In this document: positions 45,208 to 53,094 of the stretch, piece by piece
Numbering within the stretch: the stretch's first letter is position 1
How the letters are laid out: each line of letters starts with the position of its first letter
NCBI RefSeq assembly: GCF_014280935.1
Contig: NZ_JACLZI010000036.1
Span: forward strand, 310,001 to 374,000
Length of the DNA: 64,000 bases
Direction: 5' to 3'
DNA from: Aquibacillus kalidii
GTDB lineage: Bacteria > Bacillota > Bacilli > Bacillales > Amphibacillaceae
Translations under genes and position numbers: made by a program
The notes under the pieces: model-generated
Told to the model about the DNA's origin: nothing
The model's database searches: none
Seen by the model: only the letters and a program-made list of their open reading frames with translations

Positions 45208-45900
45208 CTAGCTAATCCTTGCTTTCATCTCAATCGTATCTTTTTTTTCCATCTCGACATCAATTTGATCATTCACTAATATATCAATAACTCCATTTGT
45301 TAAATTTAAACTGACATTTAAAGTATCTGAATCTCCTATTGCCGCTATGGTAAATGGAGCAGGGTGTTGCACACCATCTACAGAAATAACGGGCCCAACA
45401 CATGATATGTAGCTATCGTGAAAAATTCTTTGCCCATTAATGGAAATGGCTTTTGCACCTGCACTATATAATTCATTTATCACCAATTGAATATGACGGT
45501 CATGAACCATATATTGATTTGCATTTTCCTCGGTAGGAATGTAGGAAGCATCACTTAGAGTTAGCTTTACTCCCTCTCCCTGAATAGGTAATTCACCAAC
45601 AAGCATTTGAAGCTCTTTTTTATCTTCAACAAACTCTCCAATATTTGTTTGCTGCTGACCAAGCTCTTCTTCTAACTCTTGGACTTGTCGGCGATTCTTA
45701 TTTAATTGTTGACGTAACTCAATGTTCTTTGCCTCTAAATCGAGCAATTGTTGTCGGTAGTAGTAATCTTTTTCCCATTCTTGATCAGAGATTTGAACTA
45801 CTCTCGTTTCTGTTTGTGTGTACTGATAACTAAAAGAGATCAGAAACCCAAAGACTAGTAGGACTAAAGACAACACTACATGTCTACCCCTGAATTTCAT
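45208..45900 (-). CDS. ylxW: DUF881 membrane-anchored protein YlxW
   Basis: A 230-residue protein with an N-terminal membrane helix (VVLSLVLLVFGFLISFSY), a Gln/Leu-rich coiled coil (about 50-95: LEAKNIELRQQLNKNRRQVQ) and a DUF881 domain with MVHDRHIQLVINELYSAGAKAISINGQRI. The extracytoplasmic coiled coil is reminiscent of division proteins such as FtsL/DivIC, but no function is established. It overlaps the divIB end by 17 bp. Confidence 0.9.
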   Translation of the reverse strand: MKFRGRHVVLSLVLLVFGFLISFSYQYTQTETRVVQISDQEWEKDYYYRQQLLDLEAKNIELRQQLNKNRRQVQELEEELGQQQTNIGEFVEDKKELQMLVGELPIQGEGVKLTLSDASYIPTEENANQYMVHDRHIQLVINELYSAGAKAISINGQRIFHDSYISCVGPVISVDGVQHPAPFTIAAIGDSDTLNVSLNLTNGVIDILVNDQIDVEMEKKDTIEMKARIS

Positions 45901-46678
45901 TTTGACTCTCCTTCGGTTCTGTTACTTCTTTGTCATACGGATCAAAAACTGCTCCTCCATCACCAATCCGGATAATCCCTTCACTTTTAGGGTCTAATTG
46001 GGAAACAATAGAAGGATAAGCGCGAATCGCTTTTGCAAAATTCCGAATCGAGGCATCCACCTCAAAACCATCATTCATATATACGCGTATTTTATACGGA
46101 TTCCCTTCTGTTGGATTCCATTGGATTTCAGAAACAATCGCAACAACGGTTCGTGGCAAACGCTCTAATTCTATGGTTAGTTCCTGAAGATAGGTATCTT
46201 TTTCAAAGTTGGTGATCAATGGTGCATCACCCTTTAACGACGTTAATGGCTTGGAGTCTAATCTTGTCCCATTCTCTAATAGTTGGTAGTACTTCCCATC
46301 CTGTTTCACATACCCTACAATATGGTATTCTTTTACTGCGACATTAATAGTAGTAGGAAATGTCTTAGATACAGTGACAGACTTGATCTCAGGGTGTTTT
46401 TCTATTTGCTTTTTTACTTGTTTAATATTTACGCTCCAAAAATTATCTTCACTCGTTATCTCACTTAAATCTCTAATTGCCTTATCTTCTAAGTAGTAAT
46501 TTCCAGAAACCTTTACCTCATGTACATGACTTAGGGAAGATTGCAAATAGATAACAATAAAAATTAATGTGAAGAATATGGATAAATAAAAGATCAATCG
46601 CCTGTTTGCTTTTTTCTTTCTAGCCTGTTTTAGTTTCGGTATTCTATCTTCTATCGATACAACGTTTTTTTGACTCAT
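45884..46678 (-). CDS. divIB: Cell-division protein DivIB (FtsQ)
   Basis: A 264-residue bitopic protein. A basic cytoplasmic tail (KLKQARKKKANRR) precedes one membrane helix (FYLSIFFTLIFIVIYL), then a POTRA domain (about 50-120: VHEVKVSGNYYLEDKAIRDL) and the FtsQ/DivIB beta domain. It regulates septal peptidoglycan synthesis with FtsL and DivIC. In B. subtilis murG and murB lie between spoVE and divIB; here they are absent, and a terminator and separate leader precede divIB. Confidence 0.94.
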   Translation of the reverse strand: MSQKNVVSIEDRIPKLKQARKKKANRRLIFYLSIFFTLIFIVIYLQSSLSHVHEVKVSGNYYLEDKAIRDLSEITSEDNFWSVNIKQVKKQIEKHPEIKSVTVSKTFPTTINVAVKEYHIVGYVKQDGKYYQLLENGTRLDSKPLTSLKGDAPLITNFEKDTYLQELTIELERLPRTVVAIVSEIQWNPTEGNPYKIRVYMNDGFEVDASIRNFAKAIRAYPSIVSQLDPKSEGIIRIGDGGAVFDPYDKEVTEPKESQNEIQG

Positions 46679-46876
46679 CTCCTATTTCTTCCCTTTTACA
46701 AAATTAAATTAGGTTTATAAGGTTTTCCAAACCTATTATCTAATAGTATTACTATGAAATAACGAAACGGCATACATGGATGCCGTTAATTGGAACTAAT
46801 AATAAAATTATATCATATTTTATAGTCACTCGTATTCGATTTCTGTTGAAGTTATGCTAATTTTTTAGAAAAAAAT
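46679..46876 (-). promoter_or_regulatory. Promoter and leader of divIB
   Basis: On the minus strand an extended -10 TGATATAAT (TATAAT at 46807-46812) lies about 130 bp before divIB. The leader contains a perfect hairpin AACGGCAT...ATGCCGTT (46766-46787) and a 13-bp palindrome, ATAGTA-T-TACTAT (46743-46755). The roles of these are unknown. Confidence 0.55.
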
Positions 46877-46877
46877 A

Positions 46878-46913
46878 AAATCAGTTAGTCCACCGAAGTG
46901 AATCAACTGATTT
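46878..46913 (-). terminator. Terminator after spoVE
   Basis: AAATCAGTT...CCAC (46878-46893) pairs with GTGaatcAACTGATTT (46898-46913) with a small mismatch. On the minus strand a U-rich run follows. It separates the mraZ-spoVE transcript from divIB. Confidence 0.88.
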
Positions 46914-46953
46914 ATAAATAGTCAATGTAAAAAATATTGTTTTATTAGAGATT

Positions 46954-48069
46954 TTACAATCTCGCATATCTGCTTATGTTCAGCAAGATACCAATGGAAC
47001 ATAATGTCAATGTTAAGGAAGAACCACCATAACTTAAAAATGGTAACGTAATCCCAGTAACAGGTATTAAACCAATTACGACACTGATGTTAATCATAAC
47101 TTGGATACATACCATACCAACTATGCCTAGACCTAATAAACTTCCATACGTATCAGGTGCTGCTAGCGATACTCTAATGCCTCTCCAAAGTAAAAGTAAG
47201 AACAACATCAATACAAATGTTCCACCAAGAAAACCTAATTCTTCAGAAATAATTGCAAAAATAAAATCATTATGTGGTTCTGGTAAATAGAAAAACTTCT
47301 GTAGACTTTGTCCTAATCCCATTCCCATCAGCCCACCAGGACCAATAGCATACAAAGATTGGATAATTTGAAACCCATTCCCTAGTGGATCCTCCCATGG
47401 ATTTAAGAATGCAGTTATTCTGTTAATTCGATACGGAGCTGAAGCAATCAGTGCTAGAAACCCTAGAATACCAAGAGTGCCTAGCCCGACAAAGTGGCTT
47501 ATTTTTGCTCCTGATACAAAGATCATCACCATACAAGTTAGAACTAGGACTACACCTGTACCCAAATCTGGCTGTAGCATAATTAAACCAAAAGCAACAA
47601 ATACTAATAGTAAAGAAGGCATAAATCCTTTCTTAAAAGAAGTAATATACTTTTGATTTGTAGCTAGGTAAGTAGAAAGGAAAATGATTAATCCTAGCTT
47701 CATAAACTCAGCTGGTTGGATACTAAATGCTCCAACACCTATCCAACTTCTAGCTCCACCTCTAACCATCCCTACTCCTGGAATCAGTACGGCAATAAGA
47801 AGTAGAAAACAAACAAACAAGATAACTTTTGCATACTTCCTCCAAGTTAGATAAGGAATATTTGCGATAACAAACATAGCAATAACCCCAGTTGTAGCGA
47901 ATAGTAATTGCCTCTTCGCAAAATAAAAGGAGTCATTGAATTTGTAATCCGCCCAGATAGCTGATGCACTATACACCATTACTATTCCGACAAGTAATAG
48001 TGAAAAAATCGCGATAACCAATAGCATATCTGGTGCACTCTGTGAAGACTTCTGTTTTGTTCTGAACAA
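46954..48069 (-). CDS. spoVE: Stage V sporulation protein SpoVE (SEDS glycosyltransferase, FtsW paralogue)
   Basis: A 371-residue SEDS-family polymerase with about ten membrane helices, partner of SpoVD in spore cortex synthesis. VYSASAIWADYKFNDSFYFAKRQLLF (positions about 25-50), GAFSIQPAEFMKLGLI, FLNPWEDPLGNGFQ, FYLPEPHNDFIFAI and the terminal GITLPFLSYGGSS match B. subtilis SpoVE more closely than FtsW. The ORF is open 19 codons upstream, but a TTG at 48069 follows GGGGTG at good spacing and gives the SpoVE-like length. Start uncertain. Confidence 0.9.
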   Translation of the reverse strand: MFRTKQKSSQSAPDMLLVIAIFSLLLVGIVMVYSASAIWADYKFNDSFYFAKRQLLFATTGVIAMFVIANIPYLTWRKYAKVILFVCFLLLIAVLIPGVGMVRGGARSWIGVGAFSIQPAEFMKLGLIIFLSTYLATNQKYITSFKKGFMPSLLLVFVAFGLIMLQPDLGTGVVLVLTCMVMIFVSGAKISHFVGLGTLGILGFLALIASAPYRINRITAFLNPWEDPLGNGFQIIQSLYAIGPGGLMGMGLGQSLQKFFYLPEPHNDFIFAIISEELGFLGGTFVLMLFLLLLWRGIRVSLAAPDTYGSLLGLGIVGMVCIQVMINISVVIGLIPVTGITLPFLSYGGSSLTLTLCSIGILLNISRYARL

Positions 48070-48201
48070 AAAAACACCCCATTTCCAAATACATAGGAAC
48101 GTGGGGCTGTAGAAGAACTTGTCCAATTCATTCTACGTTAGTAGAAAACAATAGGAAAGTCCTTCTTATCTAATTTATTGCTATATAGATAAAACAAGCC
48201 C

Positions 48202-49548
48202 CTACTTTAATGTATGCACAGCATTCATAAACATGTCTCCTCTTTCCTCAAAAGTGCGATATTGATCCCAACTCGCACAAGCAGGTGACAGTAAAATAAC
48301 ATCATCTTTTTCGGATATGTTATATGCACTTTGCACGGCATGTTTTACATTATCGACGAAATGTATTGAATTTATTCCTGCCATTTGAGCAGTTTTTTCT
48401 AACTTAGGTGCTGTTTCACCAAACAAAACCATCGCTTTAACGTTACTCAAATAGGGAATTAATTCATCAAAATCGTTCCCTCTATCCAATCCTCCTGCAA
48501 GGAGGATTGTTGGTTGGTTAAAAGCAGCAAGAGCTTTTGAAGTAGCCAGAATGTTTGTAGCTTTTGAATCGTTATAAAATAATCGATCATCAATACTATC
48601 AACAAATTGAAGCCTATGCTTTACACCTGTAAAGGTTGTTAACACTTGAGTTATACCTTCTATAGTAGCACCTTGTAACTTTGCTGCCGACACAGCTGCC
48701 AAGATATTTTCTAAATTGTGTTTGCCTACTAAAGCAATTTTTCTTAGTTCTATTATTTTTTCAGACATAAAATATAAATTGTCGTCATCACACCACGCCC
48801 CGCTTGTTTGCTTTTTCGTACTAAAAGGCACTTTAGTGGCATGAGCAAATTGGACTAGTTCAGAAACATCATCATCATCCGCATTATAGACTAAATAGTC
48901 ATCCTTCGTTTGATTCCTGAAAATGTTCGCTTTTGCATGACTATAATGTTCAAAAGTTTTATGGTAGTCTAAGTGAGCTTCGAATAGATTGAGCAGGACA
49001 GAAATATTCGGCTTAAATTTTTCTATACCGAGCAACTGAAATGATGACAACTCCATTACCATCACTTCATCTTTCTTCAAATTTTCAGCTACTTCTGTAG
49101 CTACATTGCCAATATTACCTGCAAGCTGTACTTCTTGACCACTGTGTCTAATCATTTCATAAATAAGTGTTGAAGTAGTTGTTTTTCCATTTGATCCCGT
49201 AATACCAACTATAGGACTTTGCACTAACAACCCTGCAAGTTCCACTTCCGTAATAATCGGTATCCCCAGTTTTTCTGCTTCTGCTATCACTATATTTTCA
49301 TAAGGTATCCCTGGATTTTTCACTACAATCTCAATACCATCCAAAACATTAAGTGGATGGTTACCTACTATCACTTCAATATTAGCATTTTCCAGTTCTT
49401 GTACAACTGGATCATTTTGTTTTGTTTTAAAGTCATTAACCCTTACTTTCTTGCCACTTCTTGCTAGTAATTTAGCGGCAACAGTACCACTTTTAGCTAG
49501 ACCTAAAACTAATACAGAATGGTAAGAAAAATCATCTAATTTATTCAA
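48202..49548 (-). CDS. murD: UDP-N-acetylmuramoyl-L-alanine--D-glutamate ligase
   Basis: A 448-residue ATP-dependent ligase that adds D-glutamate in peptidoglycan precursor synthesis. [21 protein letters not shown] is the Rossmann N-domain, [18 protein letters not shown] the ATP loop near residue 115, [12 protein letters not shown] and [11 protein letters not shown] the metal and substrate site, and FYNDSKATN the D-Glu region. A TTG at 49548 ([12 protein letters not shown]) overlaps the mraY stop (TTGA) and is 8 bp from AGGTG; a GTG three codons earlier is the alternative. Confidence 0.95.
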
Positions 49549-50531
49549 AGTATCCACACCTCAATATACACGCCAAGCGCTGCAAAAATTAATCCAACTA
49601 ACCAAAATGTTGTTACAACTCGCCATTCGGACCATCCCATTAGTTCATAATGATGATGTAAAGGGCTCATTTTGAAAACTCTTTTTCCAGTCGTCTTAAA
49701 TGAAATAACTTGAATAATTACCGATAACGTTTCTAATACAAAAACTCCACCGATAATAATTAAAAGAATTTCTAATTTAGTTAAAATTGCTACTGCAGCT
49801 ATCGAACCTCCGAGGGCAAGAGAACCTGTATCCCCCATAAAAACCTTTGCAGGATGCGCGTTAAACACCAAGAACCCAAGCAAAGCTCCAACAACAGCTA
49901 AACAGAAGATAGTCACCTCAAATTGCGGATAACCATACCAAGCCAATATGCCAAAAGCTCCAAATGCTATTGCAGCAGTTCCAGCTAGAAGGCCATCTAA
50001 ACCATCTGTTAAATTTACTGCATTCGATGAACCTACTAACATGAAAATAATCAATAATGCGTAACCCCATCCTAAATCCCACTGGATGCTCGTTCCTGGA
50101 ATTTGAATATATGTTGGAAAGTCTTTTAACCGCAACACAATATAAAAAATAATAGAAATAATGACTTGGCCTATCATCTTTTGTCTAGATGTTAATCCTA
50201 AATTACGTTTTAGTACTACTTTTATAAAGTCATCCAAAAATCCCAATAGACCGTACCCTAACAAAACCAACAATAAAAGTAATACTTCAAAGCTTAGTGA
50301 GCTATTGTTGAATTTGCTAGTCATTATAAGTGTTGTTACGGCAACACTTAATAAAATCATTATGCCCCCCATTGTTGGAGTACCCATTTTCTTCATATGA
50401 GACTTCGGACCTTCTTCTCTTATACTCTGTCCAAACTTAAGTCTTCTCAAAAAAGGAATAAAAATAGGTGATATAAGGACGGTAATCAAAAATGCTATTG
50501 CCATAGTAATTGCTAATACGTATTCATTCAT
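49545..50531 (-). CDS. mraY: Phospho-N-acetylmuramoyl-pentapeptide transferase
   Basis: A 328-residue membrane enzyme that forms lipid I from UDP-MurNAc-pentapeptide and undecaprenyl phosphate. The pattern of ten helices is clear. Signature segments are [27 protein letters not shown] (DD pair), [30 protein letters not shown] and the HHH motif [15 protein letters not shown]. It lies between a MurF-like gene and murD, a departure from B. subtilis, where murE precedes directly. Confidence 0.97.
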
Positions 50532-50604: not shown

Positions 50605-51513
50605 TTATCTATATAGGAAATTATAAATTTGATCTTCTTCTAGTTGAAAGTGGTTCGCTATCTTAATCGCAAAAGCTACTTGCTTAGGCCCATAGCCTTC
50701 TGGGATTTTGTATTGTTTCACTCCACTACTCTCTCGCATAAGTAACTTATTTAGATCACATTCAATATGTATCCTATTAACAGGATCGAAACCAATCGAC
50801 ACAATTATGTCATTATAATTCAATCCATTAAATACAACAAGATCTCCGTCAATAATCCCTTTGCCGTTTTGTTTTATATTAGATAATAGCTCAACACTAG
50901 TTTGTGCAAATTCATTAACAGCACTATGGTAGTTGTTTTCTATTTGGCCAAAATCTGTCATTACAACTAAATCAATTCCTAACTTAGACAAACTCGACAA
51001 TTCCAAAAGGTAGTCCACAGCAACATCTAGACAAAATACCTCGGTAGCCTTAGGCATAGTTAAAATGTTTGTTAACAATTCATCGTTACCTGTAATACGA
51101 GAAGTGCTATGAACACGATATGTTTCATTTAAAAGCGACACTGTCAATTCTTTAGTTTTTAAGTCATCTTTTCCAACAAAAACAATCGTGATAGGCCTTA
51201 CTAGGTTAAGAAAATGTATAGCCAAGTCATGTAGCGCTTCTCTTGTATTAGGCACATAATATATAGGAAAGTCTGTAGGAATGAACCTTGGTAATGGATA
51301 CTCCTTCTCCCAAATAGCTGCTATTGCACCATTATAAAATGCTTCTTCTAATGCTTCTTCTTTACCAGCTTGAGAACGTTCCACAGGTATGAATAATGCT
51401 TTATTTGTTGATTCCTTACTATTAATCGTTACTTCTTTGATTGGAAGGTTATCCTTAACTGCTCCTCTTGTATCTGGGAAAATATCAGTCAAAAAATTTG
51501 TAGTAAATAACAA
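50605..51513 (-). CDS. MurF-like protein lacking the P-loop and the C-terminal ligase domain
   Basis: A 302-residue protein in the murF position of the mra cluster. Residues about 1-85 resemble the UDP-binding domain of Mur ligases (EVTINSKESTNKALFIPVE, EEAFYNGAIAAIWEK). Residues about 105-300 follow the central domain, but the P-loop G-x-x-GK(T/S) has become VGKDDLKTKELT, the usual LEMG is CLDVA, and the NxxEAHL-type metal site is DFGQIENNYH. The protein ends at YGPKQVAFAIKIANHFQLEE, where the substrate-domain helix normally leads into the C-terminal domain, which is missing (true MurF is about 450 residues). The reading frame is intact, with a TTG start after GAGGAG. It is probably catalytically dead; a scaffold or regulatory role is inference. 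Confidence 0.75.
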   Translation of the reverse strand: MLFTTNFLTDIFPDTRGAVKDNLPIKEVTINSKESTNKALFIPVERSQAGKEEALEEAFYNGAIAAIWEKEYPLPRFIPTDFPIYYVPNTREALHDLAIHFLNLVRPITIVFVGKDDLKTKELTVSLLNETYRVHSTSRITGNDELLTNILTMPKATEVFCLDVAVDYLLELSSLSKLGIDLVVMTDFGQIENNYHSAVNEFAQTSVELLSNIKQNGKGIIDGDLVVFNGLNYNDIIVSIGFDPVNRIHIECDLNKLLMRESSGVKQYKIPEGYGPKQVAFAIKIANHFQLEEDQIYNFLYR

Positions 51514-51576
51514 CCTATCCTCTCCTCATCATGTACTGGAATAGTCGGACATCAAAAAATCAATCTAATATATTTA

Positions 51577-53043
51577 TTATTTTGTATTCTCTATCCAGAT
51601 AGCTGCAACGGCCTTATCATCAAAATCAAGAACCTTATCACCAATAATTTGGTAGGTTTCATGACCTTTACCAGCAATTAAAACAATATCATCGTCTTTA
51701 GCTAACTGAATAGCATATGCGATCGCATCTTCCCTGTTTACTATTTGTTTATAATTACCTTCACTTAAATGACTTGTCATGTCCTTAAGAATAGCTTGAG
51801 GGTCTTCAGATCTAGGATTATCTGAAGTGAAAACAGCTTCATCTGCGTATTTTACGGCAATATCTGCCATTAAAGGTCGTTTCTTTTTATCTCGATCACC
51901 ACCACAACCAACAACTACAAATACATTCCCTTTCGCAAAAGACTTAATTGTCGTAAGGACATTTTCTAATGAGTCTGGAGTATGGGCATAGTCCACCACC
52001 ACACCGAATGATTGTCCTTTCACAACAGGCTCAAACCTGCCATTCACCCCTGTTGTAGACTCTAAAGCTTGTTTGATGACATTTAAAGGAACCCCGGCAC
52101 ATAAAGCTGCTCCAGTGGCAGCAAGCATATTATATACACTGAATTTTCCCATCAATTTACTGTTGATTGTTACTGTACCTTTATGTGTATGCATGTCAAA
52201 GTTAGAGCCATTGGCGTTTAAATGTAAGTTCTCAGCAGTGATATCTGCATCCGAGTTAATCCCATATGTGATAATAGGTTGAGCAGTACTCTTTGTTAAT
52301 AAATGACTATGTACATCATCTGAATTAATTACAGCAAATTTTGGATTGTTCTTGTTGTAACTGTTTCCGAGTTGAGAAAACAATAAACTTTTTGCTCTTA
52401 GATAGTCATCCATGTCTTTATGATAGTCTAAATGATCTTGAGAAAGATTAGTAAATACTGCAATGTCAAAATCGCAACCATAAACCCTTCCCATGTCTAA
52501 AGCATGTGACGAAACTTCCATAAACGCTACTTTAACTTGTTCATCAACCATTTTTCTAAAACTACGCTGTAAAAATAGAGCGTCTGGTGTAGTGTTTTTA
52601 ACCTCATAGCTATCCATCCCAATTTTCATTTGAATGGTTCCAATTAACCCAGTTTTCTGATTGTGAAAACGAAAAATTTCCTCTAGGAGGTAGGAAACGC
52701 TTGTTTTTCCGTTTGTTCCAGTAATACCAATTAGTGGAAGATCTTTTGTAGGTTCTTGAAAATAGAAGTTTGCCAACATGGAAATCGCCCTAGAGGAATC
52801 CCTCACTAGAATTACCGGAATAGACACATCTACCGGTTTTTCCGCAATAATGGCAACAGCACCTTTTGCTTCCGCTTGTTTGGCAAAGTCATGTCCATCC
52901 ACAGTAAAACCACTAATACAAATAAACAAATCACCTTTAGATACTTGTCTGGAATCCATTTGCATTCCAGTAATCTCCACGGATCTTATATCTTTCGAAA
53001 TCGTATAAACCTGTAATGACTCAATCAAATTACTTAGCTTCAC
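51577..53043 (-). CDS. murE: UDP-N-acetylmuramoyl-tripeptide synthetase MurE (meso-DAP adding)
   Basis: A 488-residue ATP-dependent ligase adding the third residue of the stem peptide. IGITGTNGKTSVSYLLEEIF (109-) is the ATP loop, EVSSHALDMGRVYGCDF and NLSQDHLDYHKDMDDY the metal and carbamoyl-Lys region, GVVDYAHTPDSLENVL follows, and the DNPR motif (TSDNPRSEDP) indicates meso-diaminopimelate rather than lysine. The GTG at 53043 gives MKLSNLIESL, as in B. subtilis; the upstream ATG at 53061 is only 2 bp from its GGAG. Confidence 0.95.
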   Translation of the reverse strand: MKLSNLIESLQVYTISKDIRSVEITGMQMDSRQVSKGDLFICISGFTVDGHDFAKQAEAKGAVAIIAEKPVDVSIPVILVRDSSRAISMLANFYFQEPTKDLPLIGITGTNGKTSVSYLLEEIFRFHNQKTGLIGTIQMKIGMDSYEVKNTTPDALFLQRSFRKMVDEQVKVAFMEVSSHALDMGRVYGCDFDIAVFTNLSQDHLDYHKDMDDYLRAKSLLFSQLGNSYNKNNPKFAVINSDDVHSHLLTKSTAQPIITYGINSDADITAENLHLNANGSNFDMHTHKGTVTINSKLMGKFSVYNMLAATGAALCAGVPLNVIKQALESTTGVNGRFEPVVKGQSFGVVVDYAHTPDSLENVLTTIKSFAKGNVFVVVGCGGDRDKKKRPLMADIAVKYADEAVFTSDNPRSEDPQAILKDMTSHLSEGNYKQIVNREDAIAYAIQLAKDDDIVLIAGKGHETYQIIGDKVLDFDDKAVAAIWIENTK

Positions 53044-53094
53044 TCTCACACATCCTAACATATCTCCGTTTACTTTATACTAATAAATAGAAAG

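Follow-up and report, generated by a model that had tools for sequence, protein, structure and literature searches.

The gene order murE-murF-mraY is among the most conserved in bacteria, and MurF, an essential enzyme, is a target for drugs. In Aquibacillus kalidii, the slot between murE and mraY is occupied by a frame of 302 codons (50605..51513) that resembles only part of a MurF, which raises the question of what this protein is and why its frame has stayed open. We analyzed the window, that is, the whole stretch of 64,000 nucleotides (positions 310,001 to 374,000 of contig NZ_JACLZI010000036.1) in which the gene lies; coordinates below are those of the window, and the gene, its parts and its two neighbors are on the minus strand. 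The gene begins with a TTG codon, ahead of which a Shine-Dalgarno sequence, AGGAGAGG, was read directly (51519..51526). Its neighbors are both intact, with murE (51577..53061) lying 63 nt before it and mraY (49545..50531) 73 nt after it. The intact frame and ribosome site reported between these two genes by the first-pass annotation were thus confirmed. Farther downstream, spoVE (46954..48126) and divIB (45884..46678) are separated by a gap of 275 nt (46679..46953) that contains neither murG nor murB, both of which B. subtilis carries at that place.

To place the protein, which we call pseudo-MurF, profile searches and alignments were carried out. It matched the MurF model TIGR01143 with an E value of 1.2e-10 over model positions 1-197 of 418, at 41 bits against a curated cut-off of 288.6 bits, and its best solved relative was S. 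pneumoniae MurF (3zm5, E 2e-7). These matches bear out the proposed Mur ligase relation of the N-terminal and central domains. Alignment divided the protein into MurF domain 1 (residues 1-108, 51190..51513) and a degenerate ATPase domain 2 (residues 109-302, 50608..51189), with the C domain absent. Full-length slot MurFs of family relatives matched it far better (E 1e-30 to 1e-54); in most genomes of the family the best match was a full MurF of ~455 aa, which in those read occupied the same slot. Among themselves, the nine nearest slot MurFs are 60-80% identical along this stretch, but pseudo-MurF shares only 31-36% identity with them over 300 aa. Conservation was strongest in domain 1, which reached 51% identity to one slot MurF (L007) and retained 28 of the 42 columns invariant among the nine relatives; domain 2 retained 30 of 88. 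Using pseudo-MurF as the query against the genome contigs, we found no relative. An AlphaFold model of pseudo-MurF alone reached a pLDDT of 34 and was left out of the analysis.

The protein also contains the motif PLPRFIPTDFPIYYV (residues 73-87, 51253..51297), which is common to full slot MurFs, to other dead MurFs and to proteins consisting of domain 1 only, and which is replaced by a three-residue gap in most ddl-linked MurFs. The best matches to the family's slot MurFs and the shared insertion and motif indicate descent from the slot lineage. In a tree in which it was placed alone, pseudo-MurF joined the slot MurFs of its own family on a very long branch.

We then compared pseudo-MurF with slot MurFs at the residues required for catalysis and substrate binding. 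The P-loop GSNGKTTTK is replaced by GKD-DLKTK from residue 114 (VGKDDLKTK, residues 113-121, 51151..51177). In the rest of domain 2, the relatives' Glu165 corresponds to Asp163, ESH to QIE190 and HNVKN to YGPKQ274, and Ser206 (50896..50898) stands where the carbamylated catalytic lysine would be. In domain 1, DSR is changed to NSK31 and the DGH loop to GKE50, so that residues 45-53 (51355..51381) read ERSQAGKEE in place of the relatives' FDGH loop; from their conservation in domain 1, we read DSR and DGH as residues that would touch the UDP-sugar. The stop codon falls where domain 2 ends, and there is no C-terminal ligase domain. Pseudo-MurF is therefore like a slot MurF in its gene slot, start, domain 1 and domain 2 fold, and unlike one in lacking the GxxGKT/S P-loop, the glutamate, histidine and carbamylated lysine, and the entire C domain, in addition to scoring below the TIGR01143 cut-off. 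Since all catalytic motifs and the C domain are lost, 50605..51513 almost certainly encodes a MurF-derived pseudoenzyme; on these alignments we consider both its origin and its loss of catalysis firm. The earlier statements that the protein lacks an ATP P-loop, has a disturbed metal-binding site, has no C-terminal ligase domain and is a non-catalytic derivative of MurF all held.

We next asked which protein carries out the MurF step. No canonical MurF was found in the A. kalidii genome, which is reported to be 100% complete, and the possibility that another full murF lies elsewhere in it was excluded. The sole MurF-type ligase of the genome is a 528-aa protein encoded on another contig. Its P-loop and C domain are intact, but a hydrophobic N-terminus with transmembrane helices takes the place of the UDP-binding domain 1. 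Its gene lies in a cassette of alpha/beta-hydrolase, membrane MurF and ddl (L031:197-3753 on contig C9). The first-pass annotation had placed the true murF elsewhere with ddl, as in Bacillus; the gene does adjoin ddl, but its product is not of the Bacillus type, being membrane-anchored and devoid of domain 1. AlphaFold modeling of the P. marinus orthologue (35 sequences, pLDDT 90.6) gave nothing but long helices ahead of the ATPase domain; the best solved matches of the model were MurF structures, led by 4qf5 (E 9e-28). Relatives of the membrane MurF were found in Gracilibacillus, Saliterribacillus, Pontibacillus, Evansella, Alkalicoccus, Alteribacter, Salsuginibacillus, Geomicrobium, Paenibacillus and Clostridia MAGs, in the same cassette wherever it was read. 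The alpha/beta-hydrolase gene preceded membrane MurF and ddl in the inspected cassettes from Bacillales to Clostridia (L125-L193).

Among 120 relatives, five contained the membrane MurF, all five without a canonical MurF, and the other 115 had a full-length match. The mutual exclusion is not absolute, as both types occur in Evansella caseinilytica and apparently in G388, G453 and G549. The last three and G141, which seem to carry a canonical and a membrane MurF, are possible displacement intermediates. The membrane MurF appears now to perform D-Ala-D-Ala addition in the A. kalidii lineage. Searches of the open-licence literature yielded no account of a membrane-anchored MurF, nor of a dead MurF located in the murE-mraY operon.

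Examination of the slot across relatives showed that the A. kalidii gene is not an isolated case. Dead slot MurFs were found in the window, in G095 (302 aa), P. marinus (313 aa) and G436, in three Evansella, in the MAG S6C1421 and in three Alkalicoccus (391-401 aa), with lengths of 305-349 aa in Evansella and the related MAG; all of these genomes carry the membrane MurF. In Alkalicoccus a degenerate C domain remains; in L214, L215 and L218 it ends in the strongly conserved KGANREMIYEILQELNRD. Within the genus of P. marinus (g81), the slot holds a 313-aa dead MurF in both species that carry the membrane MurF and a full MurF in all six that do not. The slot was empty in four genera with the membrane MurF, namely Gracilibacillus, Saliterribacillus, Geomicrobium and Salsuginibacillus, and in Paenibacillus a full MurF was still present in the slot of some genomes, with none seen in others. 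As to conservation of the gene at this locus, a check proposed by the first-pass annotation, dead or domain-1-only forms recur in the slot of relatives, and the slot of four genera is empty. In Geomicrobium sp. JCM 19038 (L222, L223), mraY is split over two frames, probably through a sequencing error.

The dead forms seem to have arisen more than once. When the Pontibacillus proteins were placed alone in the tree, they fell beside the MurFs of their congeners on very long branches, and the window protein, as described above, attached within its own family. These separate placements suggest that the conversion to domain 1 plus a dead domain 2 happened at least twice. A shared origin of the window and Pontibacillus proteins, which were grouped by their long branches when all dead forms were analyzed together, was rejected, as each attaches among its own relatives when placed alone.

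A still shorter protein of ~150 aa (138-167 aa; L224-L253), which consists of domain 1 only, often fills the slot in families whose canonical MurF is ddl-linked. A profile search detected its gene, free of internal stops, in 79 of 397 genomes of the order, representing 13 families. In all 30 loci checked it lay between murE and mraY, at -15 to +18 nt from mraY, and most had a good ribosome site. The slot-lineage motif P...P..FP, absent from most ddl-linked MurFs, is present in this protein, and members from many families share a C-terminal tail, MTKFIF...LN...YDIAV. The protein has no named family in Pfam or NCBIfam. The short form occurs alongside canonical MurF; where domain-1-only genomes were tested for the membrane MurF, none was found.

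These distributions bear on what the dead protein might do. One could imagine that it supplies the membrane MurF with a domain 1 in trans, the two jointly binding UDP-MurNAc-tripeptide, given that their domain content is complementary and that dead MurFs with a domain 2 remnant occurred only in membrane-MurF genomes. We consider this improbable, mainly because several membrane-MurF genera (at least four) have an empty slot. In addition, the domain-1-only form coexists with a canonical MurF in genomes that, where tested, have no membrane MurF, and DSR and DGH are gone from pseudo-MurF.

The loss of DSR and DGH also weakens the earlier suggestion of a UDP-MurNAc-peptide sensor, which would bind its ligand through domain 1 and regulate MurE or MraY. 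Domain 1 is the UDP-binding domain of MurE and MurF (PMC6113224), and DGH is retained in the dead MurFs of Alkalicoccus and E. halocellulosilytica. Both motifs, however, are lost in pseudo-MurF, in the Pontibacillus dead MurF and in the domain-1-only forms, which makes a sensor very improbable. Domain 1 itself persists whichever type of MurF the genome uses, and DSR and DGH do not; this suits protein binding at the MurE/MraY step better than it suits ligand sensing or the lending of a subunit.

We further investigated whether the dead forms are under selection. Within genera, dN/dS of the domain-1-only gene was mostly 0.1-0.25. The Pontibacillus dead MurF had a dN of 0.095 and a dS of 0.233 (omega 0.41), with an excess of third-position changes (p 3e-5), and a third-position excess was also found in Alkalicoccus (p 1e-7 to 9e-13). 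For comparison, the neighboring genes and the genes of the membrane MurF cassette had omega values of 0.02-0.07. The related dead MurFs and domain-1-only genes are therefore under purifying selection, far weaker than that on the surrounding enzymes, and the dN/dS check proposed earlier came out in favor of constraint in these other lineages. The constraint on the window gene itself was gauged by frame survival only; in a codon-position test of its branch, only 15 third positions, those invariant among relatives, were usable. Unconstrained drift to ~36% identity would be expected to introduce ~13 stops into 302 codons, and none of 4000 simulations remained open, indicating that the open frame is not due to chance. 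The simulation gives an upper bound, since some of the divergence dates from before the gene ceased to encode an enzyme.

The same data must be set against slow decay, in which the operon copy would have been functionless since the takeover and would be in the course of being lost. Weak selection would still maintain its frame for the time being, for instance if an untranslated or misfolded stretch interfered with mraY translation. The empty slots, the relaxed omega of the Pontibacillus gene, the very long branch of pseudo-MurF and its weak TTG start (relatives' slot MurFs start with ATG) are consistent with such a relic. Its complete lack of stops is not, nor are the third-position excess in Pontibacillus and Alkalicoccus, the maintenance of the same 313-aa form in two species, the convergence of at least two separate origins on domain 1 plus a dead domain 2, and the stability of the domain-1-only gene in 13 families. 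We regard decay as a serious, though less likely, explanation, and retention of a non-catalytic role as reasonably probable.

On balance, we somewhat favor the following explanation. Pseudo-MurF is the remnant of the operon's own murF, which would have been displaced by the membrane MurF; the latter combines transmembrane helices with the ATPase and C domains, lacks domain 1 and would have taken over D-Ala-D-Ala addition. This takeover would have left the operon copy free to lose catalysis, so that its C domain was lost at the domain boundary and its ATP, metal and carbamate residues disappeared, while its reading frame and domain-1 core were preserved in a protein that would take part in the MurE/MraY step without catalysis, probably by binding other proteins. 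That it is an adaptor at this step is a tentative guess; it may instead be a scaffold, as the first-pass annotation put forward. Two observations count against the displacement of murF with retention of a partner: the constraint is weak (omega 0.41 versus 0.02-0.07), and slots are empty in four genera, where the presence of the membrane MurF without a slot protein means that the dead protein is dispensable.

The two proteins were also compared with known systems. MurT, of the MurT/GatD lipid II amidotransferase, is a Mur ligase homologue without the N-terminal UDP domain that works on a lipid-linked precursor; the authors of that study argued that with such a substrate a UDP domain is not needed and would collide with the membrane (PMC6113224). 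MurT and the membrane MurF are alike in lacking domain 1, and MurT differs in working with GatD. It is also not known to have a multi-helix membrane region. Pseudo-MurF is the opposite piece, keeping domain 1 and losing catalysis; it has neither the middle plus MurT-type C domain architecture without domain 1 nor a gatD neighbor, being flanked instead by murE and mraY. A Foldseek search with the membrane MurF model matched 8r6s chain Q, a plastid RNA polymerase subunit that is a repurposed MurE-like protein. That subunit reuses the Mur ligase fold as a structural element, but in another compartment and process, and it is related to MurE rather than MurF. A MurE-MurF fusion that binds MurG (PMC6420597) is an example of physical linkage between MurE and MurF and of binding among Mur enzymes, although both halves of the fusion are catalytic and it has no dead subunit.

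By analogy with MurT, the wall precursor might receive its last amino acids at the membrane, with the membrane MurF using lipid-linked MurNAc-tripeptide after MraY and the dead MurF acting as an adaptor that passes the tripeptide product of MurE to MraY. This scheme is speculative and we think it rather unlikely. The existence of the membrane MurF raises the question of whether D-Ala-D-Ala is always added before MraY.

Taken together, MurF appears to have been displaced by a membrane-anchored form without the substrate-binding domain, and the old gene to have been retained in dead form on repeated occasions, across several lineages. Should that form have a role, MurF would have a non-catalytic function that is masked by its enzymatic one, and such a non-enzymatic role in wall building, if real, would be previously undescribed as far as the open-licence literature goes. 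The presence of the domain-1-only gene in many families of Bacillales makes this role directly testable in tractable species.
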